A stretch of DNA of 64,000 nt, from the NCBI GenBank assembly GCA_030653035.1, contig JAUSAB010000073.1:1-64000 (forward strand), written 5' to 3'. The stretch is from Desulfocapsaceae bacterium. Its GTDB lineage: Bacteria > Desulfobacterota > Desulfobulbia > Desulfobulbales > Desulfocapsaceae. Positions 4,250 through 49,005 of this stretch are shown here, in pieces. The notes beneath the pieces were generated by a model. It was not told the origin of the DNA, did no database searches, and saw nothing but the letters and a program-made list of their open reading frames with translations. The translations under genes were made by a program, and so were the position numbers. Position 1 is the stretch's first letter. Every line of letters begins with the position of its first letter.

Positions 4250-4376
4250 TGATGGTTAAGCGAAAAGGCCCAAAGACAAGGCGGGCAAATCCTGAGGAAT
4301 GAGGCGTACGCCAGTACGCCGCAGTGACGAAGGATGCAGCGCAACGCAGTATTTGGGCCTTTGCGCTTAACCATCA
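4250..4376. repeat. hairpin repeat, family A, copy 1
   Basis: A 127-bp element with 25-base inverted ends (starting TGATGGTTAAGCG and mirrored at the far end, one mismatch) and an inner stem GGCGTAC/GTACGCC. A second copy lies at 46119-46244. The right end supplies the TGA stop codon of lolA when read on the minus strand, so the element starts exactly at that stop. It fills the gap between lolA and the radical SAM gene. The structure suggests a REP- or MITE-like dispersed element; no coding capacity is seen. Confidence 0.8.
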
Positions 4377-38505: not shown

Positions 38506-38636
38506 TTTCGCATACCTTTTCGCATTTTTTCAACAAATAGACAATATTTTTTTCCCCTGAAAATTATTGACAAGCAGCAGGCAACGCCGTAAGAATATGT
38601 GGATGGTCATTATTGGACAAATTTAGACAAGAACGG

Positions 38637-39332
38637 ATGAAAATGGAGAAGACATTTATCTCAATTAAGGGTGTGGCGGAAAAACTGGGTGTTTCTGAGA
38701 AGACCATTTATCGGATGGTCGGTGACAACCAGATCCCCTTTGCGGTCAAGATCGGCGGGCAATGGCGTTTCAAGGCCGATGAGGTCGTTGACTGGATCGA
38801 CAATCAGAAACAGCCGGCCACCAGCGTCCCCCGGAAAAAGACGGATTATCATATTTCCCTGGCCTCTGCCTTGGGAAATGGGGCGGTTCTCTATCGGATC
38901 CATGGCACCAATCGAGACGAGATCATCGATGAGCTGCTGGCGGCCCTGCCCTATTCCGCCAACTTGGATGCCAAGGCCATCAAGATCTCCGTGCTGTCGC
39001 GGGAGTCGGTGGCTTCTTCCTCCATGGCCGGGATTGCCTGGATGCGTCCTGACCCGGCCCTGCCGGTTTATCTGGAAAAAACCATGGTCATCCTCGCCTT
39101 TCTTGAACAACCGGTGGATTTTAAGGCCCTGGATCACAGGAAGACGGAGCTGCTTTTTCTGGTGCTGCCCGCCAATAATACCGAGATGGCGATTATTGAA
39201 CGCAAACTGTGGCGGCTCGCCATGTCCGCTTCATTTCTGGCCGGGATTCGCGAGCAGTTGACCCGCAAAAAACTGCTCGACTTCATTGTTGCCCAGGAAG
39301 GGGTTGTCTTCCCCCAGGGGCCATCGGTATGA
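38637..39332 (+). CDS. helix-turn-helix protein fused to a PTS EIIA-like domain
   Basis: About 231 residues. Residues 5-55 are an excisionase-type DNA-binding domain (GVAEKLGVSEKTIYRMV, then PFAVKIGGQWRF). Residues 70-225 resemble the fructose-type PTS EIIA fold. The usual phosphorylated histidine lies in a GIxxPH motif; here the matching stretch is GIAWMRP, so the histidine is missing and PTS phosphotransfer is unlikely. The gene stop overlaps the ATG of the next gene (ATGA at 39329), coupling it to the membrane complex. It is likely a regulator. The start at 38637 or the ATG two codons later is uncertain. Confidence 0.75.
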   Translation: MKMEKTFISIKGVAEKLGVSEKTIYRMVGDNQIPFAVKIGGQWRFKADEVVDWIDNQKQPATSVPRKKTDYHISLASALGNGAVLYRIHGTNRDEIIDELLAALPYSANLDAKAIKISVLSRESVASSSMAGIAWMRPDPALPVYLEKTMVILAFLEQPVDFKALDHRKTELLFLVLPANNTEMAIIERKLWRLAMSASFLAGIREQLTRKKLLDFIVAQEGVVFPQGPSV

Positions 39333-41299
39333 ATTTTCTTTTTTTATCCTGGCTGGTACTGGGGCTTGGCGCCTGTGCGGCAGCTCTGCCCTGGCGTAGT
39401 GCCCGGATCACTGCTCTCCTTGGCGGCGGCAGCGCCGTGCTTGGCTGTGTGTCAGGGCTGATTGCGGTCGGGCAGGGGTTGGTTGCCGAGAGGGCCGCAA
39501 CATTTTCCCTCCCCTGGTCCATGCCCGGCGGCTCGTTTTCCCTGCGCCTCGATGGGCTGTCGGCTTTTTTCCTGCTGCCGCTTTTTATCGTCGGTCTGGT
39601 CGGGGCGCTGTACGGGACTGAATACATGCAGAAGGAGAAGGCGTGTCTACATTGGAGCTGGTACAATCTGCTCCTTGTCTCCATGGCCATGGTGGTGACC
39701 GCGGCCAACGGCCTGCTGTTCCTCTTTGCCTGGGAGTGCATGTCGCTCACCTCTTTTTTCCTGGTGATCACTGAGTATAATAAATCAGAGGTCGTGGCGG
39801 CTGGCTGGATCTATCTTCTGGCGACCCATCTCGGCGCGGCCTGTCTTTTTGCATTTTTCCTTAGCGCCGGCGCCTTTTGCGGGAGTCTTGACTTTGCCTC
39901 TTTTCAGCACCTGAACAAGCTCACCGGGCCCGTTGTCTCTGTGCTTTTTTTGCTGCTGCTGGCCGGATTCGGCAGCAAGGCCGGTATCTTTCCCTTGCAT
40001 GTCTGGCTGCCGGATGCGCATCCGGCAGCGCCCAGCCATGTCTCGGCGCTCATGAGCGGGGTTATGGTAAAGACTGCCATTTACGGCCTTCTTCGCATGT
40101 GTTCCTTCTTCACGGCATCTCCTGTCTGGTGGGGCGGTCTACTGATGGCAATCGGTATCACCGGCGCGCTCTTCGGCATTGCCATGGCCGCCATGCAAAG
40201 CGATGTGAAACGCAGTCTTGCCTACTCCACCGTGGAAAATGTCGGTATCATCCTTCTGGCCCTTGGTTTCTGGATGCAGAGCCGGGCTGCGGGCCAGCAT
40301 GTTGTGGCCGCCCTGGCCTTGGCTGGCGGCCTGATCCATCTTTTGAACCATGCCCTGTTTAAGAGCCTGCTTTTTCTGGGGGCCGGATCATTGATGCACG
40401 GCAGCGACAGCCGCGATCTCAATCGTATGGGTGGTCTCATGTGTCGCATGCCGGTGACTGGTCTGATGATTGTTTGCGGGGGCATGGCAATCAGCGCCTT
40501 GCCGCCATTCAATGGGCTGGTCGGCGAATGGTTCATCTACCGCGCCCTGTTGGAGAGCGGCGCCGCCCTTTCCGGTCTGGGCGGCTTTTTCCCGGTCATG
40601 CTGGTCGGGTGCCTGGCCCTCGTGGGCGGACTGGTTCTCATTGTCATGACCCGCATCATCGGCATTGCCCTGACGGGAGTTCCACGCAGCCCGGAGGCGG
40701 CCGAGGCGCACGAAGCCGGCTGGCCCATGCGTAGCGCCATGATTGTTTTGGCCCTGCTCTGTCTGGCTGGTGGCCTTCTGCCGATCCAGTTGCTGCGGGT
40801 GGCTGGACGGGCCGCAGTTTTGCTTGACCCTGAATCGGCACAGCTGTTTGCCGGCCAGGTTATAACCCCGTGGTGGCTGGGAATCATGGCGTTTCTGCTC
40901 ATAGGGGCCCTGCTGGCGGCATTCAGTTTTAACCGCTGGCGACAGGGACGAGGAACCGTGGCTGCTGCCTCCACCTGGGGTTGTGGTTTTGCCTTTCCAT
41001 CAAACCGGATGACATACAGCGCTGAGAGTTATAGTGAACTTGCCCAGAGTGGGATGTTCTGCAGTTGTCTGACCCCGAAAAGCAAGGACGGCCGTACCAT
41101 CGGTTTTTTCCCGATACGACGATTCTTTGTCTTTACCGCACCAGATCCGGTGCTGGAAAAATTCTTCAAACCCCTGTTTCAGAGGCTTGCCGACTATTGC
41201 CGTCGTTGCTGCCGGTTGCAGTCAGGCAATCTGCACATTTATCTGCTTTATGTCTTTTGTACCACCATCCTGCTTCTTTTCTGGGTCGGGCAACGGTGA
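39329..41299 (+). CDS. hydrogenase-4/complex-I antiporter-like subunit (HyfB type), copy 1
   Basis: A 656-residue integral membrane protein with about 15 helices, related to HyfB and NuoL. Typical stretches: LLFLFAWECMSLTSFFLVI, the functional lysine region AGFGSKAGIFPLHVWLPDAHPAAPSHVSALMSG, MQSDVKRSLAYSTVENVGI, and HALFKSLLFLGAG. The C-terminal part carries TWGCGFAFPSNRMTYSAESY, as in HyfB. It pumps ions as part of the complex. The start overlaps the HTH-EIIA gene. A longer reading from 39209 is artefactual. A second, similar subunit lies at the far end of the cluster. Confidence 0.88.
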   Translation: MNFLFLSWLVLGLGACAAALPWRSARITALLGGGSAVLGCVSGLIAVGQGLVAERAATFSLPWSMPGGSFSLRLDGLSAFFLLPLFIVGLVGALYGTEYMQKEKACLHWSWYNLLLVSMAMVVTAANGLLFLFAWECMSLTSFFLVITEYNKSEVVAAGWIYLLATHLGAACLFAFFLSAGAFCGSLDFASFQHLNKLTGPVVSVLFLLLLAGFGSKAGIFPLHVWLPDAHPAAPSHVSALMSGVMVKTAIYGLLRMCSFFTASPVWWGGLLMAIGITGALFGIAMAAMQSDVKRSLAYSTVENVGIILLALGFWMQSRAAGQHVVAALALAGGLIHLLNHALFKSLLFLGAGSLMHGSDSRDLNRMGGLMCRMPVTGLMIVCGGMAISALPPFNGLVGEWFIYRALLESGAALSGLGGFFPVMLVGCLALVGGLVLIVMTRIIGIALTGVPRSPEAAEAHEAGWPMRSAMIVLALLCLAGGLLPIQLLRVAGRAAVLLDPESAQLFAGQVITPWWLGIMAFLLIGALLAAFSFNRWRQGRGTVAAASTWGCGFAFPSNRMTYSAESYSELAQSGMFCSCLTPKSKDGRTIGFFPIRRFFVFTAPDPVLEKFFKPLFQRLADYCRRCCRLQSGNLHIYLLYVFCTTILLLFWVGQR

Positions 41300-41375
41300 C
41301 GGCCAAGGACGGCCTAATGCCGCGTGAGCCAGGGATGGCGGTAGCGGTGACGGGAGAATGATGAATCATGGATAA

Positions 41376-41522
41376 TTCCAATTTGCATTCAAGCAGGCAC
41401 CTTCGTCGGCTGCACTGCGCGGCTCCTCACCGTACTCCCCGTACTGCTTCTTCGCTGCTCGTTCGTCGATGGGTCTACGCCCACCCACTGCCTCTCGGTG
41501 TCAACTTGAATGCTTTTTGGAA
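41376..41522. repeat. hairpin repeat, family B, copy 1
   Basis: A 147-bp element with 18-base inverted ends (TTCCAATTTGCATTCAAG and its near-complement). It occupies most of the gap between the HyfB-like and HyfC-like genes, ending seven bases before the HyfC-like start codon. Its interior, read on the minus strand, resembles the interior of the copy at 49039-49162 (AGCAGTACGGGGAGTACGGT type). It could attenuate or process the operon transcript. Confidence 0.75.
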
Positions 41523-41528
41523 TAAGAA

Positions 41529-42449
41529 ATGAGAATCACAATACTCCAGCTGTTTCTGCATCTGCTTTTACTCTTCGGCTTTTCCCCGTTGCTGTCCGGG
41601 GTTATTGGCAAGACCAAGGCCCTTTTTACCGGCCGCGTGGGTCCACCGTTTCTCCAGTTGTACTTTGATATCTGGAAGCTGTTTGGCAAGGGGATGGTCA
41701 TCAGTCGTACCACCACCTGGATTTTCCGGGCCGGGCCGGTGGTCGGCCTTGCCGTGCCACTGCTGGCTGGCCTCCTGATCCCCTTTGGCCCTGTCGGTGC
41801 GCCCATCTCCTTTAGCGGCGATCTGATCTTTTTTGTCTATCTCTTTGCACTGTCCCGTTTTTTTACCGCCTGTGCCGCACTGGATACCGGCTCTTCCTTT
41901 GAGGGCATGGGCGCGGTGCGTGAGGTCACTTTTTCCTGTCTGGCTGAACCCACCGTCTTTTTTGTCTTTATCGTTCTGGCCCGGCTTTCCGGTTCGTTTT
42001 CACTTGATGCCATGTTTGGCCAGACCCTGGCTGCCTCCTGGCATACGGCCGCGCCATCGCTACTGCTCATTCTGGTGTGCCTGTTCATCGTGACCCTGGT
42101 GGAGAACTGCCGTATCCCCTTTGATGATCCGACCACCCATCTTGAGTTGACCATGATTCACGAAGTCATGGTTCTTGATCACAGTGGCCCGGATTTCGGC
42201 ATGATCCTTTATGGGGCGGCCATGAAATTATTTGTCTTTGGCGCCTTGGTGGTACGGTTATTTCTTCCCGGAACAACCGGCAATATGGCCCTTGATATCC
42301 TGCTGTTTATCGGCGGAATCCTCTTTATGGCCGTGGTTGTCGGGGTGATTGAATCCGTTATGGCGCGCTTGCGGCTGCTGCGGATTCCTCAACTCCTGGT
42401 GGGCGCCTCGTTGCTCTCCTTTTTTTCGTTGATCCTGCTTTTAAGGTAA
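41529..42449 (+). CDS. NuoH/HyfC-like membrane subunit
   Basis: A 306-residue protein with about eight helices. It is the membrane anchor that links the hydrophilic arm with the ion-pumping arm. The signature EVTFSCLAEPTVFF and the charged loop CRIPFDDPTTHLELTMIHEVMV are typical of HyfC/EchB-type NuoH homologues. The usual ribosome-binding site is weak because a hairpin element ends just upstream. The next gene begins four bases after its stop codon. Confidence 0.9.
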   Translation: MRITILQLFLHLLLLFGFSPLLSGVIGKTKALFTGRVGPPFLQLYFDIWKLFGKGMVISRTTTWIFRAGPVVGLAVPLLAGLLIPFGPVGAPISFSGDLIFFVYLFALSRFFTACAALDTGSSFEGMGAVREVTFSCLAEPTVFFVFIVLARLSGSFSLDAMFGQTLAASWHTAAPSLLLILVCLFIVTLVENCRIPFDDPTTHLELTMIHEVMVLDHSGPDFGMILYGAAMKLFVFGALVVRLFLPGTTGNMALDILLFIGGILFMAVVVGVIESVMARLRLLRIPQLLVGASLLSFFSLILLLR

Positions 42450-42453
42450 ATTC

Positions 42454-43092
42454 ATGGATACTATTTCCAATATTCTGTTATTGCTGGTGATCTTGCTCAA
42501 CTTCTTTCTGCTGGGTAGCAGCCGCTTGGCGAGCTGTATTCGCACGATTGCCCTCCAGGGTGGGATCCTTTCCCTGCTCCCTGTTCTCGCGCACGGATTT
42601 TCCGGTCATACGCTGTTTCTCTCCACCGTGGCCTTTCTGCTCAAAGGGATTGCCATCCCGTACCTCCTTTTCCGGGCCATCCGTCAGGTTCATATTCGCC
42701 GGGAGATAGAGCCGTTGATCGGCTATGTGCCCACCCTTATCCTCGGCACCCTGGCCACAGCCGGCTCCTTTATCTTCAGCGGTCGGCTGCCGCTGATTCC
42801 CGAACACAGTCAGTCACTTTTCGTCCCTGTTGGTCTTGCAACTCTTGCCACCGGTTTTCTCATGCTCATCAGCCGGCGCAAGGCCATCACCCAGGCTCTT
42901 GGGTATCTGATCTTTGAAAACGGCATCTTCATCTTCGGCATGCTGTTGACTGAGGCCATGCCCCTGATGGTAGAGGCTGGTGTCCTGCTCGATCTGCTGG
43001 TCGGTGTCTTTGTTATGGCTATTCTCATGCATCAGATCAACCGGGAATTTTCCACCATGAATACGGACAATCTTACCTCCTTAAAAGAATAA
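42454..43092 (+). CDS. HyfE-like membrane subunit
   Basis: A 212-residue protein with about seven helices. HyfE family features: repeated transmembrane segments, LLFRAIRQVHIRREIEPLIGY, and ALGYLIFENGIFIFGMLL, which resembles the NuoK-like motif with a membrane glutamate. Part of the antiporter arm. Its stop is followed after one base by the HyfF-like start. Confidence 0.88.
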   Translation: MDTISNILLLLVILLNFFLLGSSRLASCIRTIALQGGILSLLPVLAHGFSGHTLFLSTVAFLLKGIAIPYLLFRAIRQVHIRREIEPLIGYVPTLILGTLATAGSFIFSGRLPLIPEHSQSLFVPVGLATLATGFLMLISRRKAITQALGYLIFENGIFIFGMLLTEAMPLMVEAGVLLDLLVGVFVMAILMHQINREFSTMNTDNLTSLKE

Positions 43093-43093
43093 T

Positions 43094-44542
43094 ATGGAAA
43101 ACAACCTCCTTGCAGTCCTTCTCCTTCTGCCATTCTGTGGCTCTGTTTTGGCCTTTAGTCTGCCTTCAGACCGTCTCCGCCCGTGGCTGCTGCCCCTGTG
43201 CGGAACGCTGCATCTGGCGCTAACCTTCCTTGTCATCCAGGGAGGGCGGCCATTGACGACAGCGAATGGCTGGCTGGGCGTCGACCCCTTGAGCCGTCTC
43301 ATCCTGCTGGTCATCAGTCTGCTTTTCTGTGGCTGTTCGTTTTATGCCTTGGGGTATCTTCGTTATCGTATCTCCTGGGGCAACAGAACCTTTGTCGGCT
43401 GCCTGCTGCTTTTTCTCTCCGCTATGACTCTTGCGGCCATCTCGCGTCATCTGGGCATCCTTTGGGTGGCGGTGGAGACCACCACCGTAGCCAGCGCCCC
43501 GCTTATCTATTATAACCGGAACCGGCTCTCCATTGAGGCTACCTGGAAATACCTGCTCCTCGGTTCGGTGGGCATTGCCCTGGCGATGCTGGGCATTCTT
43601 TTTATCGCCTATGCCGCCCTTGCCGGAAACGGACACGTCAGCCTGCAATTTGATGATATCCTCCATGGCGCCGCCAGTTATTCAAGGCCCTGGCTGAGAG
43701 CGGGCTTTGTCTTTCTTCTGGTTGGCTTTGGCGTTAAAGTAGGTTTTGCCCCCCTGCACACCTGGAAACCCGATGCCTATGGTGAGGCGCCCGGCCTGGT
43801 TGGTGCGCTCCTGGCGGGCGGTCTCACCAGCGTCGCCTTTCTGGCCCTTCTCCGGACCCTGCAGATCATGGATGCTGCCAGTGAAGCGGTCATGGCTCGT
43901 GAGGCTTTCCTGGCCATGGGGCTTCTCTCTATGGCCTTTGCTGCCGTCTTTGTCGTCCGTCAGCCTGATTTTAAGCGGATGCTGGCCTATTCCAGTGTTG
44001 AACACATGGGAATTCTCGCTATCGGCATCAGTGTCGGCGGGGTTGCCACCTTTGGGGCCATGCTCCATCTGATGAATAATGCCCTGACCAAAGGAGTGCT
44101 TTTCCTGGCCGCCGGCAATATTCATCGTCGTTTCGGCAGCAAAAAGGTGGATGATGTTCGAGGGGCGATAACCCTGCTGCCTTTTTCCGCCACCCTTTTT
44201 CTCCTGGGCTTTCTGGCCATCACCGGTTCGCCCCCGTTTTCGCCGTTTATCAGCGAGTTTACCATTCTGCAGGGGGTTTTCAGCGGTGACCATTATGTGA
44301 CCGGTGGTCTTTTCCTTTTCTTTCTGGCGGTCATTTTTATCGGCATGGGCAGCACCGTGCTTTCGGTGGTCTTTGGGAATCCGCCGGAAAAGAAAGGCGA
44401 TGAGAACTATCGGGAAACCTTTGCCACTACCGGGGCGCCGCTCATTATGCTGTTGATTGTCCTAGTTCTGGGGGTCTATCTGCCGGATCCTGTTCGCCAT
44501 ATTTGTGCTGACGCGGCCGCATTGCTGGAGGTGAGACCATGA
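43094..44542 (+). CDS. HyfF/NuoN-like antiporter subunit
   Basis: A 482-residue protein with about 13-14 helices. The conserved glutamate and lysine region LWVAVETTTVASAPLIYYNRN, the lysine loop GVKVGFAPLHTWKPDAYGEAP, and MLAYSSVEHMGILAIGISVGG are typical of HyfF. It overlaps the next gene by four bases (ATGA). Third proton/ion channel of the complex. Confidence 0.9.
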   Translation: MENNLLAVLLLLPFCGSVLAFSLPSDRLRPWLLPLCGTLHLALTFLVIQGGRPLTTANGWLGVDPLSRLILLVISLLFCGCSFYALGYLRYRISWGNRTFVGCLLLFLSAMTLAAISRHLGILWVAVETTTVASAPLIYYNRNRLSIEATWKYLLLGSVGIALAMLGILFIAYAALAGNGHVSLQFDDILHGAASYSRPWLRAGFVFLLVGFGVKVGFAPLHTWKPDAYGEAPGLVGALLAGGLTSVAFLALLRTLQIMDAASEAVMAREAFLAMGLLSMAFAAVFVVRQPDFKRMLAYSSVEHMGILAIGISVGGVATFGAMLHLMNNALTKGVLFLAAGNIHRRFGSKKVDDVRGAITLLPFSATLFLLGFLAITGSPPFSPFISEFTILQGVFSGDHYVTGGLFLFFLAVIFIGMGSTVLSVVFGNPPEKKGDENYRETFATTGAPLIMLLIVLVLGVYLPDPVRHICADAAALLEVRP

Positions 44543-46074
44543 TGAAAAATAATCTGGAGCCGCAACTCCTGAAAAACGGCGAGACTGTTGATCTGGGCCT
44601 GGTGGAATCGCTGGGGTATGATGAATTCAGCCGTTGCCTGCTGGCTGAGGTCAAGGCCGGGGGGAGGGTGGCGGCCCTGTTCGGTGTTCCCGGGGTGGAA
44701 AAAGACGATGACCTGGAGTTGTATGCCCTGATTGCCAGGGATCGTCACGCGAACTTGGCTGTCTATCGAACCGAGGTCGGGGCCAGCTTCCCATCACTTA
44801 CTCTGAGTTGTCCGCAGATCCATCTGTTTGAAAGGGAGATTGCCGAACAGTACGGGGTGACGCCAACAGATCATCCCTGGCTCAAACCCCTGCGTTTTCA
44901 TCGGGTCTGGCAGGGTCAGACTGATGTCTGGGGCCGCCCGCTGGACACCCATCCGCGTCCAGGGGACATGGAGTTCTACTGGATAGATGGGGAAGGGGTG
45001 CACGAGGTGGCGGTCGGGCCGGTGCATGCCGGGATCATTGAACCTGGCCATTTTCGTTTCCAGTGTTATGGCGAAAAGGTGATGCATCTGGAGATCTCCC
45101 TTGGCTACCAGCACCGGGGTATCGAGCCGATGCTGCTTGCCGGTCCACATCCCTTCACCATGGCCCAGATGGAAACCATTGCCGGCGATACCACTATCGG
45201 TCATGGGCTTGCTTATTGTCAGGTTATCGAGGCCCTGAGCGGCTGTGTGGTTTCCGATAGGGCTCAAGCCATTCGCGCCATGGCTCTCGAACTGGAACGA
45301 CTGGCCAATCATGTGGGCGACATCGGTGCCCTGGCTGGCGATATCGGCTTTCTTCCTACCGCCTCTTTTTGCGGCCGCCTGCGCGGCGACTATCTCAACC
45401 TGAGCGCGGCCCTGTGCGGCAGTCGTTTTGGACGGGGCCTGGTGCGGCCTGGCGGGGTTCTTTTTGACCTTGATGCGATTCTGGCCGGCGGGATATTGAC
45501 CAGGATTGATGAGATTGAGGGCAATACCCTGGGGGCCCTCAACCTCTTTTTTGACGAACCTTCGGTCTTGGGCCGCCTGGAAGGCACCGGCCGGGTGTCC
45601 CGTTCAGTGGCGGAAGATCTGGGGCTGGTGGGGGTAGCCGCCAAGGCCTGCGGCGTCCCCCGTGACAGTCGTTTTTTTCACACCACCGGGGTATATAGCC
45701 GGCTTTTTGATGAGCTGGTTGTTGAGGAAACGGGTGATGCCATGGCCAGAGCTCATGTGCGTTTCCGTGAGGCTGTGGTCTCTATCGACCTGCTCCGGCG
45801 GATCGGCACAAACCTTCCTGCCGGGCCGGTCAAGGCTCCAGTCGGACCGCTTCAGAGCAATGCCCTGGCGGTTTCTCTGGTGGAGGGCTGGCGGGGGGAG
45901 GTGGTTCATGTGGGCATTACCGATGCCGGTGGTCGTCTGCGGCGGTACAAGATCGTTGATCCCTCTTTTCATAATTGGAGCGGGTTGGCCATGGCCCTGC
46001 GTGATGAACAGATCTCAGATTTTCCCTTGTGTAACAAGAGTTTTGGTCTTTCCTATTGCGGGTTTGATCTATAG
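44539..46074 (+). CDS. NuoCD/HyfG-like subunit lacking NiFe ligands
   Basis: A 511-residue peripheral subunit. Residues 60-125 are NuoC-like (HLFEREIAEQYGVTPTDHPWL); the rest is NuoD/HyfG-like (EISLGYQHRGIEPMLL, LELERLANHVGDIG). In true hydrogenases the nickel is held by CxxC in RVCGICxxxH and by DPCxxC near the C-terminus. Here the first reads TIAGDTTIGH (Ala215, Thr218) and the second DPSFHN (Ser476, Asn479), so all four cysteines are absent. The enzyme is therefore not a hydrogenase. This is the pattern of the hydrogenase-related Ehr complexes, whose electron donor and acceptor are uncertain. Three bases of overlap with the upstream gene. Confidence 0.88.
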   Translation: MMKNNLEPQLLKNGETVDLGLVESLGYDEFSRCLLAEVKAGGRVAALFGVPGVEKDDDLELYALIARDRHANLAVYRTEVGASFPSLTLSCPQIHLFEREIAEQYGVTPTDHPWLKPLRFHRVWQGQTDVWGRPLDTHPRPGDMEFYWIDGEGVHEVAVGPVHAGIIEPGHFRFQCYGEKVMHLEISLGYQHRGIEPMLLAGPHPFTMAQMETIAGDTTIGHGLAYCQVIEALSGCVVSDRAQAIRAMALELERLANHVGDIGALAGDIGFLPTASFCGRLRGDYLNLSAALCGSRFGRGLVRPGGVLFDLDAILAGGILTRIDEIEGNTLGALNLFFDEPSVLGRLEGTGRVSRSVAEDLGLVGVAAKACGVPRDSRFFHTTGVYSRLFDELVVEETGDAMARAHVRFREAVVSIDLLRRIGTNLPAGPVKAPVGPLQSNALAVSLVEGWRGEVVHVGITDAGGRLRRYKIVDPSFHNWSGLAMALRDEQISDFPLCNKSFGLSYCGFDL

Positions 46075-46118
46075 TTGAGAAAATATAAAAAAGATGTTTC
46101 GTGAAAAGTTTTTAAGAA

Positions 46119-46244
46119 GATGGCTAAGCAAAAAGGCCCAAAGACGAGGCGCACAAATCCTGAGGAATGCGGCGTACAATAAGTACGCCGCAGTGACGAA
46201 GGATGCAGTGCAACGAAGTATTTGGGACTTTTTGTAACGCCATC
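46119..46244. repeat. hairpin repeat, family A, copy 2
   Basis: A 126-bp element homologous to 4250-4376, with ends GATGGCTAAGCAAAAAGG and a mirrored right end, and inner GGCGTAC/GTACGCC. It lies between the HyfG-like and the NuoI-NuoB-like genes, inside an otherwise tightly packed operon. Compared with copy 1, the loop and several stem bases differ with compensating changes only in part. Confidence 0.75.
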
Positions 46245-46258
46245 AAGGACAAAACAAC

Positions 46259-47008
46259 ATGTTACGTGTAATCAGTGAGCGATTTCAGCAGGGGTTTCGG
46301 ACCGGGAAATTTCCCTTGGAGGAGCCAACGCTGCCCCCGCGCTTTCGTGGCCTTCCCCGGTTTGATGGGGAGTGTCCGTCAGGGTGCCGGGCATGTGAGC
46401 AGCTTTGTCCCTTTGGCGCCTGCACGGTGTGGGAAGGGAAGATGGTCATGGATCTTGGCCGCTGCCTGTTCTGCGCCGATTGTCCGGCCTGTCCGCAGGG
46501 CCGCATCGCCTTTGGCAATGACTACCGGCTGGCAGTGCGTGGGCGGCACGACCTTCTCTACAGCGGCGCAGCATATCCCCTGGCAGAACCCCTGGAACCT
46601 GCCCGGCTCAAACTTTTTGGCCGGTCGCTCAAACTGCGCCAGGTCTCCGCTGGTGGTTGCAACGCCTGCGAGGCCGACTGCAACGTGCTCGGGACCCTGG
46701 TCTTTGATCTTGGCCGTTTCGGCATCCAGTTTGTGGCCTCGCCCCGCCACGCTGACGGAATCCTGCTCACCGGGCCGGTCACCGAAAATATGCGCAGCGC
46801 GGTGCTGGACACCTATGAGGCAGTGCCTGGACCCAAGGTCGTCATTGCGGTCGGGGCCTGCGGGATCAATGGTGGGCCTTTTGGCCTCAGCCCCGAAACC
46901 AATCAGGGGCTGGGAACGTTGTTACCCGTAGATCTTTATATTCCGGGCTGTCCTCCGCATCCTTACACCATCCTTGACGGCCTGCTGCGGCTGCTTGGCA
47001 AAAGGTAA
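46259..47008 (+). CDS. fused NuoI-like and NuoB-like iron-sulfur subunit
   Basis: A 249-residue protein merging two electron-transfer subunits that are usually separate. Residues 35-80 are ferredoxin-like, with Cys39, 43, 46 and 50, and Cys69, 72, 75 and 78 for two [4Fe-4S] clusters. Residues 125-249 are NuoB/HyfI-like, with the cluster ligands in GGCNACEADC (134-141), GACGINGG (201) and IPGCPPHPYTILDGLL (231). Electrons would pass from the ferredoxin part to the N2-like cluster next to the NuoCD-like subunit. A hairpin element separates it from the previous gene; the last subunit follows after 17 bases. Confidence 0.85.
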   Translation: MLRVISERFQQGFRTGKFPLEEPTLPPRFRGLPRFDGECPSGCRACEQLCPFGACTVWEGKMVMDLGRCLFCADCPACPQGRIAFGNDYRLAVRGRHDLLYSGAAYPLAEPLEPARLKLFGRSLKLRQVSAGGCNACEADCNVLGTLVFDLGRFGIQFVASPRHADGILLTGPVTENMRSAVLDTYEAVPGPKVVIAVGACGINGGPFGLSPETNQGLGTLLPVDLYIPGCPPHPYTILDGLLRLLGKR

Positions 47009-47025
47009 GGGAGGGGGCAGAGAGC

Positions 47026-49005
47026 ATGGCTGAACTCTTTCTTGCTGCTCTTATCCTGATATTCTGCTCCGGTCTACCGGCAATGGCTTGGGGGCGCTGG
47101 GGCCGACGCGGTGAGCTGGCCTCGGTTATCCTGCTGGTATTGGGGGTCTCTCTGGCCCTTGTCGCAACGCTTGCCGCCGGCATGCAGACGCCAGCACCCA
47201 TCCTGGCCCTGGCATGGGCGCATCCAGCTGGTCAGTTTGTCCTGGAGCTGGATGGAATTGCCGTGCTCTTTCTCCTGCCGGCCCTGGTCATTCTGGGCAT
47301 GGGGGGTATCTACGGACTTGGCTACTTTCCCCAGGTCAAGTTCGGCCGGGCAGCAGGCAGGGTGCGTTTATTTTATGGCATACTGGGCACATCCGTTGCC
47401 CTCCTGCCGGTCTGTCGCAATGGCATCCTCTTTCTCATGGCCTGGGAGGTCATGGCCCTCAGTTGTTTTTTTCTGATCCTCACCGACCAAAAGGAGGAGT
47501 CAGCCCGCCGGGCCGCCTATGTCTATCTGATGGCCACCCATGCCGGAACCCTGGCCCTCTTTGCCCTGTTCATCCTGCTGGCAGGCAGCAGCGGCAACTT
47601 TGATTTTCCCTGGGCCGCGACCTTGCCGGGGGCAACGGTTACTGCCGGCGCGGTCTTTCTCCTTGGTCTGTTCGGTTTTGGGATGAAAGCGGGTATGATG
47701 CCGCTCCACTTCTGGTTGCCGGCTGCCCACGCCAACGCGCCCAGTCATGTTTCCGCTTTTATGAGCGGGGTGATGATCAAGATGGGGATTTATGGTCTGG
47801 TGCGCATCACCAGCTTTTACAGCAGTCCGCCTGCCTGGTGGGGGTGGACTGTCCTGGCGCTGGGGGTGATCTCGGCCATCATGGGTGTGGTCTTTGCCCT
47901 GGCCCAGCATGATATCAAACGTCTGCTCGCCTATCATAGCGTTGAAAATATTGGCATTATCCTCATCGGTCTGGGTTGCGCCCTGCTGGGGCAGAGCTTT
48001 CACCATCCTTCGGTGGTGGCCCTTGGTCTGGCCGGGGCCTTGCTTCATGTAGTCAACCATGGCCTGTTCAAGTCCCTGCTCTTTCTTGGCGCGGGTTCGG
48101 TGATCCAGGCAACTGGAACAAGAATGATCGACCATTACGGGGGATTGCTGCGGGCCATGCCGTACACCGCTTTTTTCTTTCTGGGAGGGGCGGTGGCCAT
48201 CTGCGGGCTGCCGCCCCTCAACGGTTTTGTCAGCGAATGGTTGATTTACCTTGGCCTGTTGCACAGCCAGACGGCGGGTGCGATTTCCCCGCTTTCCCTG
48301 GCAGTGCTGGCCATCCCCGCCCTGGCCATGACCGGGGCTTTGGCCCTGGCCTGTTTTGTCAAGGTCTTCGGCGTTACCTTTTTGGGAACAGCGCGCAGGG
48401 ATTTTCAGATCCCGCCCCAGGAGGCACCTGGCAGCATGCTCCTGCCCATGGGTGTTCTTTTCCTCGGCTGTCTGGCCATAGGTCTGATGCCATGGGCCAT
48501 TGTCCCCCTGTTGCAACGGGGAATTGTCTCCTGGCTGGGAACAGGATCGGTTGCCGTGCCGCTTATCACCACCCTGGCGCCGGTGATCTGGATCAGTCTC
48601 GGCGCCATTCTGCTGCTGGGGATCATCGGTGTTGTCTGGTACCGGCAAAGCTTTCCTGAAGATGATTATCAGCGGCGTCCTGCTACCTGGGGTTGTGGCT
48701 ATATCAAGGGAACGGCCCGGATGCAATACTCTGCCTCCTCCTTTGCGGAACAACTTGTTCGCCTCTTCCGCTGGGGGTTATGGAGTGATATTTCCGAAGG
48801 ACGGACCATTGGTTTTTTCCCCGCCTTGGCCCGTTTTGCCGATCACACCCCCGATGTTGTCCTTGATCGTCTGCTTTATCCCACCTTCCGCGCCCTGACC
48901 AGGGCGGCCTTTCTCCTCCGCTCCTTTTTTCACCAGGGCCGGATTAACGTCTATCTGCTCTATTGCGCCCTGACCCTTTGTCTGCTGCTAATCTGGCTGA
49001 TTTGA
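47026..49005 (+). CDS. hydrogenase-4/complex-I antiporter-like subunit (HyfB type), copy 2
   Basis: A 659-residue membrane protein, a paralogue of the first gene in the cluster. Matching signatures are ILFLMAWEVMALSCFFLIL, FGMKAGMMPLHFWLPAAHANAPSHVSAFMSG, LAQHDIKRLLAYHSVENIG, and TWGCGYIKGTARMQYSASSF. It ends the operon. With the HyfF-like subunit this gives three antiporter-like modules in one cluster. Downstream is a convergent hairpin element at 49039-49162. Confidence 0.88.
   Translation: MAELFLAALILIFCSGLPAMAWGRWGRRGELASVILLVLGVSLALVATLAAGMQTPAPILALAWAHPAGQFVLELDGIAVLFLLPALVILGMGGIYGLGYFPQVKFGRAAGRVRLFYGILGTSVALLPVCRNGILFLMAWEVMALSCFFLILTDQKEESARRAAYVYLMATHAGTLALFALFILLAGSSGNFDFPWAATLPGATVTAGAVFLLGLFGFGMKAGMMPLHFWLPAAHANAPSHVSAFMSGVMIKMGIYGLVRITSFYSSPPAWWGWTVLALGVISAIMGVVFALAQHDIKRLLAYHSVENIGIILIGLGCALLGQSFHHPSVVALGLAGALLHVVNHGLFKSLLFLGAGSVIQATGTRMIDHYGGLLRAMPYTAFFFLGGAVAICGLPPLNGFVSEWLIYLGLLHSQTAGAISPLSLAVLAIPALAMTGALALACFVKVFGVTFLGTARRDFQIPPQEAPGSMLLPMGVLFLGCLAIGLMPWAIVPLLQRGIVSWLGTGSVAVPLITTLAPVIWISLGAILLLGIIGVVWYRQSFPEDDYQRRPATWGCGYIKGTARMQYSASSFAEQLVRLFRWGLWSDISEGRTIGFFPALARFADHTPDVVLDRLLYPTFRALTRAAFLLRSFFHQGRINVYLLYCALTLCLLLIWLI

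Follow-up and report, generated by a model that had tools for sequence, protein, structure and literature searches.

A complete operon for an energy-converting hydrogenase-related (Ehr) complex lies at positions 38637-49005 on the forward strand of the window, by which we mean the whole 64,000-nucleotide stretch analysed here (contig JAUSAB010000073.1, assembly GCA_030653035.1, from a Desulfocapsaceae bacterium). The encoded complex is probably a ferredoxin-linked, H2-independent ion pump with a rebuilt chamber. Ehr complexes are group-4-like complexes without nickel motifs, and their function is given as unknown in the literature (PMC6349859, PMC10284858, PMC10432482, PMC4378227, PMC7304191). 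An earlier note, made from the sequence of the window, had proposed an Ehr-type complex, and this proposal is supported by the operon content, by the absence of all four nickel-binding cysteines from the large subunit EhrL and by the EhrL tree. The statement that such a complex has "lost its nickel" can now be turned into positive and testable ones, in which the mechanisms are narrowed and residues for mutation are named. The operon is composed of the following features:

38637-49005, + strand: complete Ehr operon with regulator, HyfB-, HyfC-, HyfE- and HyfF-like subunits, EhrL, ferredoxin-NuoB fusion and second HyfB
38637-39332, + strand: regulator, first gene of the operon, HTH_17 plus phosphotransferase system (PTS) EIIA domain, EIIANtr-like (Pfam HTH_17 1.1e-13, PTS_EIIA_2 2.6e-6)
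39329-41299, + strand: HyfB/NuoL-like antiporter subunit (EhrA, copy 1), 656 amino acids (PF00361 1.8e-52; NF005086 hydrogenase 4 subunit B 1.3e-163, below cut-off)
41529-42449, + strand: HyfC/HycD/NuoH-like membrane anchor, 306 amino acids (PF00146 5.2e-38; best solved relative HycD 7z0s_D, 9.1e-37)
42117-42197, + strand: Ehr-specific chamber-loop motif PFDDPTTHLELTMIHEVMVLDHSGPDF, residues 197-223 of the NuoH-like subunit (alignment of NuoH-like rows)
42454-43092, + strand: HyfE-like membrane subunit (EhrC in Geobacter naming), 212 amino acids (NF008556 hydrogenase 4 membrane subunit 4.7e-25, below cut-off)
43094-44542, + strand: HyfF-like antiporter subunit, 482 amino acids (PF00361 1.2e-51; NF005044 hydrogenase 4 subunit F 1.3e-94, below cut-off)
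44539-46074, + strand: EhrL, NuoC+NuoD/HyfG-like large subunit without nickel ligands, 511 amino acids (open reading frame, domains, alignment, tree, fold)
45181-45192, + strand: site of the first nickel cysteine pair, A215-G216-D217-T218 of EhrL (alignment)
45964-45975, + strand: S476 to N479 of EhrL, aligned to TYANW of HycE and no nickel-ligand site (alignment)
46018-46071, + strand: C-terminal motif DFPLCNKSFGLSYCGFDL of EhrL (residues 494-511), which holds the true second nickel-pair site S505/G508 (alignment)
46259-47008, + strand: EhrS, two-cluster ferredoxin domain (HycF/HyfH-like) plus NuoB/HycG-like domain (PF01058 1.3e-26; best solved relative MbhJ 6cfw_J, 5.6e-33)
47026-49005, + strand: second HyfB-like antiporter subunit (EhrA, copy 2), 659 amino acids (PF00361 1.6e-52)

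EhrL is encoded by a single ATG-started open reading frame (ORF) that occupies exactly 44539-46074, and it consists of an N-terminal NuoC-like domain (PF00329) followed by a NuoD-like domain (PF00346). The closest solved protein by sequence is HycE of the Escherichia coli formate hydrogenlyase (6e-40). HycE is also the best match of the predicted fold (Foldseek 1.6e-31; Z 38.6 over 478 residues at 3.0 Å), ahead of NuoCD of E. coli complex I (Z 33.6). The underlying AlphaFold model was built from 52 sequences and has a mean predicted local distance difference test (pLDDT) score of 86.3 and a predicted template modelling score of 0.90.

The former nickel sites were located in an alignment of 126 proteins, which comprised 109 core Ehr sequences including that of the window, 10 distant Ehr sequences, two NuoD sequences and five group-4-type sequences with all four cysteines (HycE, HyfG, L041, the second copy of L065 and L130). 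Fragments covering fewer than 300 query residues and rows identical over the last 300 residues had been removed, the second step reducing the set from 134 to 126; the Ehr rows are non-independent, as some loci share a genome. The earlier note had assigned the lost CxxC pair to A215/T218, and indeed the RVCGIC pair of HycE aligns there. In contrast, its assignment of the second pair to S476/N479 was wrong, as the DPSFHNW stretch (474-480) aligns to TYANW of HycE; Thermus Nqo4 has APSFVN at this position. The DPCYSC (DPCxxC) site of HycE falls on the last residues of EhrL, namely S505 and G508 of the terminal NKSFGLSYCGFDL. The claim that the large subunit has no nickel ligand holds nevertheless: none of the four cysteines of the RxCGxC and DPCxxC motifs that characterise group 4 [NiFe] hydrogenases is present at A215/T218 and S505/G508 when EhrL is aligned with HycE and HyfG. 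A shift of the four cysteines to other positions, which would have contradicted the claim, is not seen in the alignment, where C507 lies near the second pair. This residue stands between the two pair positions and is a cysteine in 106 of 107 core rows and in 1 of 10 distant rows; it was rejected as a displaced universal ligand, given that Ser or Ala occurs in the other nine distant rows.

The residues that now occupy these sites are nearly invariant. Only one of 119 Ehr rows has a cysteine at the first pair (position 215, L059), while G216 is Gly in 119/119, D217 is found in 118/119 and H222 in 116/119 rows. S505 and G508 occur in all 117 Ehr rows with residues there, two rows being truncated, and in the same 117 rows the stop codon directly follows position 511. 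Residue 511 aligns with the Arg of CTDR in HycE, which we take to be the cleavage point of the HycI protease, and HycE and HyfG carry 32 more residues. The tail is also absent from both NuoD rows and from the cysteine-bearing L041 and L130; since two of the five cysteine-bearing rows lack it, the C-terminal extension does not define group 4 [NiFe] hydrogenases. Moreover, E168 of EhrL aligns with E21 of MbhL and is Glu in 119/119 Ehr rows, compared with Gly in both NuoD rows. In the membrane-bound hydrogenase (MBH), E21 of MbhL is the key residue for proton reduction (PMC7684303).

Many of the Ehr loci were collected by scanning a single genome of each species for patterns including PVHAG[IV]IE and [LM]FEREI[AG]E. 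At least 584 stretches matched, 558 were confirmed and the best 80 of these were used. According to their record titles, these 80 loci come from Planctomycetota, Verrucomicrobia, Acidobacteria, Omnitrophota, Elusimicrobia, Treponema, Myxococcales and other groups. Because the patterns contain H163, E168 and the FERE stretch, their conservation in the 80 scanned loci partly reflects how the loci were selected; both H163 and E168 are present as well in all 39 Ehr rows, including that of the window, which come from outside the scan. Across the 109 core rows, the two four-residue former nickel sites have a mean consensus of 98%, compared with 68% for the domain outside the list of pocket positions. 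This exceeds what chance would give, as only 200 among 20,000 random pairs of four-residue windows were as conserved, and the last 18 residues of EhrL rank 8th by conservation among 340 windows. Judged by this alignment, the EhrL pocket is remodelled and conserved rather than decayed.

EhrL is also under purifying selection. Comparison with six copies from the same genus (85-91% identical) gave 0.05-0.09 nonsynonymous (dN) and 0.31-0.89 synonymous (dS) substitutions per site, corresponding to a dN/dS of 0.10-0.16. The low dN/dS together with the 98% consensus of the former nickel sites speaks against a non-functional Ehr. A relic of a hydrogenase, as stated for Geobacter (PMC13194489), would agree with the loss of all four nickel ligands, with the missense mutations that two Ehr subunits of Geobacter had acquired after prolonged culture on an electrode (PMC13194489) and with the occurrence of the complex, since an EhrL-like match (identity of at least 35%) was found in 29 of 58 genomes near that of the window, so that about half of these relatives lack Ehr. 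However, apart from the low dN/dS, the pocket consensus extends across many phyla, the whole operon is kept, the NuoH-like subunit has a fixed motif (see below) and Ehr subunits are abundant in formate-grown G. sulfurreducens (PMC7894505), which makes a relic extremely improbable. Ehr genes should not be read as dead hydrogenases, and hydrogenase-4-like names do not imply H2 metabolism.

Genes of the nickel machinery are present in the genome. The earlier note had suggested a look for maturation genes elsewhere in the genome, and HypF, HypD and HypE were found on contig C71 beside a hydrogenase-2-like enzyme; a sulfhydrogenase-like enzyme is encoded on contig C117. Because maturation genes and [NiFe] enzymes occur in the same genome, the absence of nickel ligands from EhrL does not stem from lost nickel machinery. 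For RnfC, the window genome gave only matches below the cut-off.

The relationship of EhrL was addressed with a quick tree of 51 rows (LG+C20 with posterior mean site frequencies), from which eight pocket columns had been dropped. The 44 Ehr rows form one branch apart from NuoD with a support of 100 in the Shimodaira-Hasegawa-like approximate likelihood ratio test, and this branch joins HycE/HyfG at 93, with a long-branch warning. EhrL of the window groups with Geobacteraceae and other Ehr rows and not with HycE/HyfG, a comparison that the earlier note had suggested; the Geobacteraceae rows are unannotated loci assigned to Ehr by gene content. Its nearest rows are L007 from the same genus, the deltaproteobacterial metagenome-assembled genomes (MAGs) L046 and L047, the Desulfuromonadales MAG L108 and Desulfobulbus sp. 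SURF_48 (L051).

Distant Ehr types with 34-42% identity were also seen (L032, L040, the second copy of L119, L129 and the plasmids L131-L136), the plasmid-borne ones in Variovorax, Rhodococcus, Cupriavidus, Azospirillum and Rhizobium. These ten rows have no cysteine at the nickel-ligand positions and eight keep the Arg of RxCGxC (position 213). Existing annotations give their large subunit the name NADH-quinone oxidoreductase subunit C.

The loop between transmembrane helices 5 and 6 (TMH5-6) of the NuoH-like subunit of the window reads PFDDPTTHLELTMIHEVMVLDHSG, which is of the HLELxxxHE type (THLELTMIHE). H204, E206, H211 and E212 are present in all 111 other Ehr NuoH-like rows; once the window is counted, the 112 rows represent 107 loci and 110 distinct sequences. 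By contrast, the loop is three residues shorter and lacks H204 and H211 in E. coli NuoH, HyfC and HycD and in two other non-Ehr rows; likewise, it is three residues shorter and without the Ehr motif in the solved MbhM, MbsM and NdhA. In the sulfane-sulfur-reducing complex MBS (Mbx) of Pyrococcus furiosus, the chamber is defined by three loops, the TMH5-6 loop among them, and MBH and complex I have counterparts (PMC7684303). By alignment position, the loop of the window would be equivalent to it. The absent nickel ligands are thus accompanied by a His/Glu motif in one of the loops around this chamber. A full-text literature search with HLELTMIHE gave no match, and neither the loop motif nor the EIIA regulator is named in those parts of the Ehr literature that were searched, subscription papers being mostly outside this scope.

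Taken further, the Ehr site may be a new kind of active site rather than an emptied one, an idea that we put forward tentatively. In this case, the His and Glu residues of the loop would combine with GDT..H and SYxGxD of EhrL at the interface between peripheral arm and membrane, might bind a metal other than [NiFe], and would act on a substrate other than those of hydrogenases, complex I and MBS. If true, the Ehr-specific site would be a further chemistry grafted onto the complex I chassis.

It is also conceivable, though unlikely, that the chamber reduces menaquinone as in complex I with other ligands for the head group, which would make the complex a ferredoxin:quinone oxidoreductase. In complex I, this chamber between the NuoD-like and the NuoH-like subunit is where quinone binds, and the head group is bound by H38 and Y87 of Nqo4 (PMC7684303). 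These two residues fall on I167 and G216 of EhrL, so that the quinone residues of complex I are absent, and position 216 is Gly in 119/119 Ehr rows. Among 50 genomes from the 80 loci, for which no completeness values were given, 26 have a match to the MqnC family (23, of which 16 above cut-off) or to MenD (4), and genome G058, whose locus L045 encodes an EhrL 86% identical to that of the window, has MqnC-family matches, one of them above cut-off. However, the remaining 24 genomes gave no MqnC-family or MenD match, and their pocket does not differ from that of the 26. Moreover, Riflemargulisbacteria with Ehr do not have full quinone pathways (PMC6349859). Quinones other than menaquinone may occur in these genomes. 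UbiA (PF01040) was tried as a marker for quinones and proved useless, as it matches 46 of 50 Ehr genomes and also 14 of 14 controls. Whether residue 509 is Phe or His likewise showed no link to the presence of menaquinone genes (Phe in 6 loci with and 2 without the genes, His in 18 and 22; Fisher p 0.24; 49 of 50 loci, L045 lying outside the deduplicated set).

The Fe-S residues of the small subunit EhrS are intact. All 12 Fe-S cysteines are present in EhrS of the window, and therefore three [4Fe-4S] clusters would be bound. In 106 rows, eight positions are Cys in 103-106 rows and one in 95. EhrS residues 117-246 align without gaps to residues 18-147 of MbhJ, including the loop of the proximal cluster, which has the length found in MBH. 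This bears on the possibility that the complex is a sulfane-sulfur (polysulfide) reductase, for which MBS of P. furiosus provides a solved precedent of a hydrogenase-like complex minus nickel binding (PMC7684303), and the window genome encodes the dissimilatory sulfite reductase subunit DsrA (G000, contig C12, 94235-95467; 575 bits, above cut-off). However, MBS keeps two of the four cysteines, has no equivalent of MbhL E21, and its proximal-cluster motif is three residues shorter with coordination by three cysteines (PMC7684303). The window differs in each of these testable features, with none of the four cysteines, E168 kept and the gap-free MBH-type loop. Ehr also occurs in genera that are not known for sulfur respiration. 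A role as sulfane-sulfur reductase is thus very unlikely.

The three antiporter-like subunits carry Glu in transmembrane helix (TM) 5, Lys in TM7 and Glu in TM12, where NuoL/M/N have Glu, Lys and Lys/Glu. The TM5 Glu, the TM7 Lys and the TM12 Lys/Glu are the pump residues of antiporter-like subunits. Like the Ehr complexes of the cited papers, the complex of the window would move electrons and ions, as far as the sequence allows this to be judged. In the preferred mechanism, ferredoxin, as the most likely soluble carrier of low potential, would pass electrons to the two outlying ferredoxin-type clusters of a machine of the group 4 hydrogenase/complex I type, from where they would reach the hydrogenase-type proximal [4Fe-4S] cluster of EhrS. 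A small-molecule acceptor (or donor, in reverse) would then react in the chamber that EhrL forms with the NuoH-like subunit, and this reaction would power the passage of ions through the three antiporter-like subunits. Hydrogen would not be the substrate, as a conserved polar pocket made of two EhrL elements, GDT..H and the C-terminal SYxGxD(L), and of the His/Glu motif of the NuoH-like subunit would stand in place of the [NiFe] site. We infer the ferredoxin partner, the ion pumping, the pocket reaction and the direction alike.

Several points weigh against the proposed ferredoxin-linked pump. The case for ferredoxin as partner rests solely on the homology of the N-terminal domain of EhrS, and three of the eight cysteine positions of this domain are less well kept, with Cys in 74, 77 and 80 of 106 rows. 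The loops of the EhrL pocket (161-169, 496-499 and 501-511) have a pLDDT below 50 in the model of the lone subunit, which therefore gives no pocket geometry. Furthermore, the loop motif is confined to one clade, so that its link to the cysteine loss is a single event and no statistical covariation. The parts of the literature examined report no measured Ehr activity. The abundance of Ehr subunits in formate-grown G. sulfurreducens was taken as possible support for H2 formation from formate (PMC7894505), and a formate dehydrogenase-Ehr complex was proposed, in which the electron source would not be ferredoxin (PMC6349859). Finally, EhrL of Desulfotomaculum ruminis, encoded within Desru_3260-3265, is said to retain the four cysteines and may be a true hydrogenase (PMC3569383).

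The complex could also run backwards, with the proton-motive force lifting electrons uphill to ferredoxin, whether from quinol or from some other donor, so that low-potential electrons become available for the fixation of CO2 or N2. Azospirillum, Rhizobium and Cupriavidus are genera that include aerobes and diazotrophs. Plasmids of these genera encode Ehr-type large subunits, one of each having been checked by alignment; Ehr has been reported in nitrifiers (PMC10284858, PMC10432482) and an EIIANtr-like regulator is a common neighbour. However, sequence cannot give the direction, and the objections to quinone hold if quinol is the donor. We consider this reverse mode decidedly unlikely.

All members of the Ehr gene set are present in the operon (HyfB-, HyfC/NuoH-, HyfE- and HyfF-like subunits and the large and small hydrogenase-like subunits), and the view of the earlier note that the rest of the operon is hydrogenase-4-like is confirmed by the HyfB/C/E/F/H/I-like subunits identified. 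In the operon, to which the search was confined, neither the NADH module NuoE/F/G nor a formate dehydrogenase was found, the seven genes scanned being other subunits, and between 39329 and 49005 the ORF list leaves no space for an extra gene on the same strand. Likewise, no HycB/HyfA-like gene and no maturation protease was recognised in the operon. The two HyfB-like copies are 38% identical. One HyfB-like gene lies upstream of EhrL in 46 and two in 14 of the 62 loci with room (at least 7.5 kb before EhrL), according to a heuristic count. Between EhrL and EhrS, at 46104-46246, the window carries a dispersed repeat, about 130-140 bases long, whose core looks by eye like an inverted repeat; 15 matching pieces including itself were found genome-wide, one of them in the window at 4251-4362.

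The regulator gene may alternatively start with TTG at 38613, and its stop codon shares bases with the start codon of HyfB-like copy 1 in an ATGA overlap. A homologue lies upstream in 39 of the 62 loci with room. The PH of the GIAIPH motif in EIIA, whose His is presumably the phosphorylation site, is kept in 36 of 42 aligned regulators and lost in the window, L045-L048 and L051; the regulator of the window has GIAWMR instead, which suggests that phosphorelay control may have been dropped in this clade. A promoter-like TTGACA-18-AAGAAT at 38567-38596 is a consensus match only, with 10 such sites in the region compared with 4.6 expected. A sigma-54 promoter ahead of the operon was rejected, as no site was found there and the single match in the window is at chance level. 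Besides the regulator, no conserved partner gene was seen beside the core Ehr operons, the most widespread recognised family (response-regulator-like) occurring in 10 of 80 loci; larger neighbour clusters inside the operon span were taken for shadow or antisense frames and not checked one by one. Since no other recognised neighbour family exceeds 10 of 80 loci, the redox partner is probably soluble. In L158, TrkA- and TrkH-like ORFs (by eye; potassium transport) directly precede the HyfB-like gene of the Ehr operon. EIIANtr acts on potassium uptake in other systems.

A second Ehr type, whose EhrL is about 45-50% identical to that of the window, is found in related genomes (L034, L039, L145-L151, L157). 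At L034 and L035 (genomes G002 and G011), Ehr operons of two types follow each other on one contig with a SulP gene between, where neither a regulator nor the first HyfB of the second operon was found. Directly upstream of this sister type, 11 of 18 loci, some of which are cut by contig ends, have a gene for an LCIB-like putative beta-carbonic anhydrase (10 loci plus G011), for instance at L039:264-1442 and, placed by coordinates, at G011:C18:17470-18648. The LCIB-like proteins share conserved PSRAFCSDEN and HVGYDP stretches, the former being absent from a relative in L036, and no solved relative was found at E<=1.

The LCIB-like gene, the SulP permease beside 6 of the 18 loci and the richness of the NuoH-like loop in His and Glu would fit a complex that, like DAB and the NDH-1 CO2-uptake complexes, powers or scaffolds the hydration of CO2 or the uptake of bicarbonate. 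However, the window genome gave no LCIB match, which as an empty result is weak evidence. The LCIB-like member scored 21.4 bits against a PF18599 cut-off of 25, with 8 of 10 members at E<=0.01 and a best value of 1.7e-4. LCIB is also present in G003, which has no Ehr-like match, and in G055 on a different contig from Ehr. Moreover, the fully kept electron-transfer cysteines favour redox chemistry, and such a role in CO2 uptake is therefore highly improbable.

Among known systems, the Ehr complex of Geobacter, GSU0739-45 in G. sulfurreducens, whose subunits include EhrA-1 (NuoL-like), EhrC (HyfE-like), EhrL and EhrS (PMC7894505), shares with the window the gene set and the loss of the nickel cysteines, and the Geobacteraceae rows group with the window in the tree; the window clade differs by the second HyfB-like gene at the end of the operon and by an EIIA regulator without the His motif. 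E. coli formate hydrogenlyase and hydrogenase 4 (group 4a) share the NuoC-NuoD fusion, the fold, HyfB/C/E/F/H/I-like subunits and the MBH-type proximal cluster, whereas EhrL of the window lacks the four nickel cysteines and the C-terminal tail of HycE/HyfG and the NuoH-like loop differs. MBS of P. furiosus is likewise a hydrogenase-like complex that has lost nickel binding, but the window has none of its remaining cysteines, retains E168 and the MBH-length proximal loop, and MbsM is without the Ehr loop motif. Complex I resembles the Ehr complex in its architecture, its pump residues and a large subunit without the cysteines and with the same end point, but its proximal cluster has adjacent cysteines instead of the hydrogenase-type CxxC of EhrS, and the NuoH loop is different. 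The Ehr complex type was known already; added here are the rebuilding of its chamber and evidence that speaks against a site like that of complex I or MBS.

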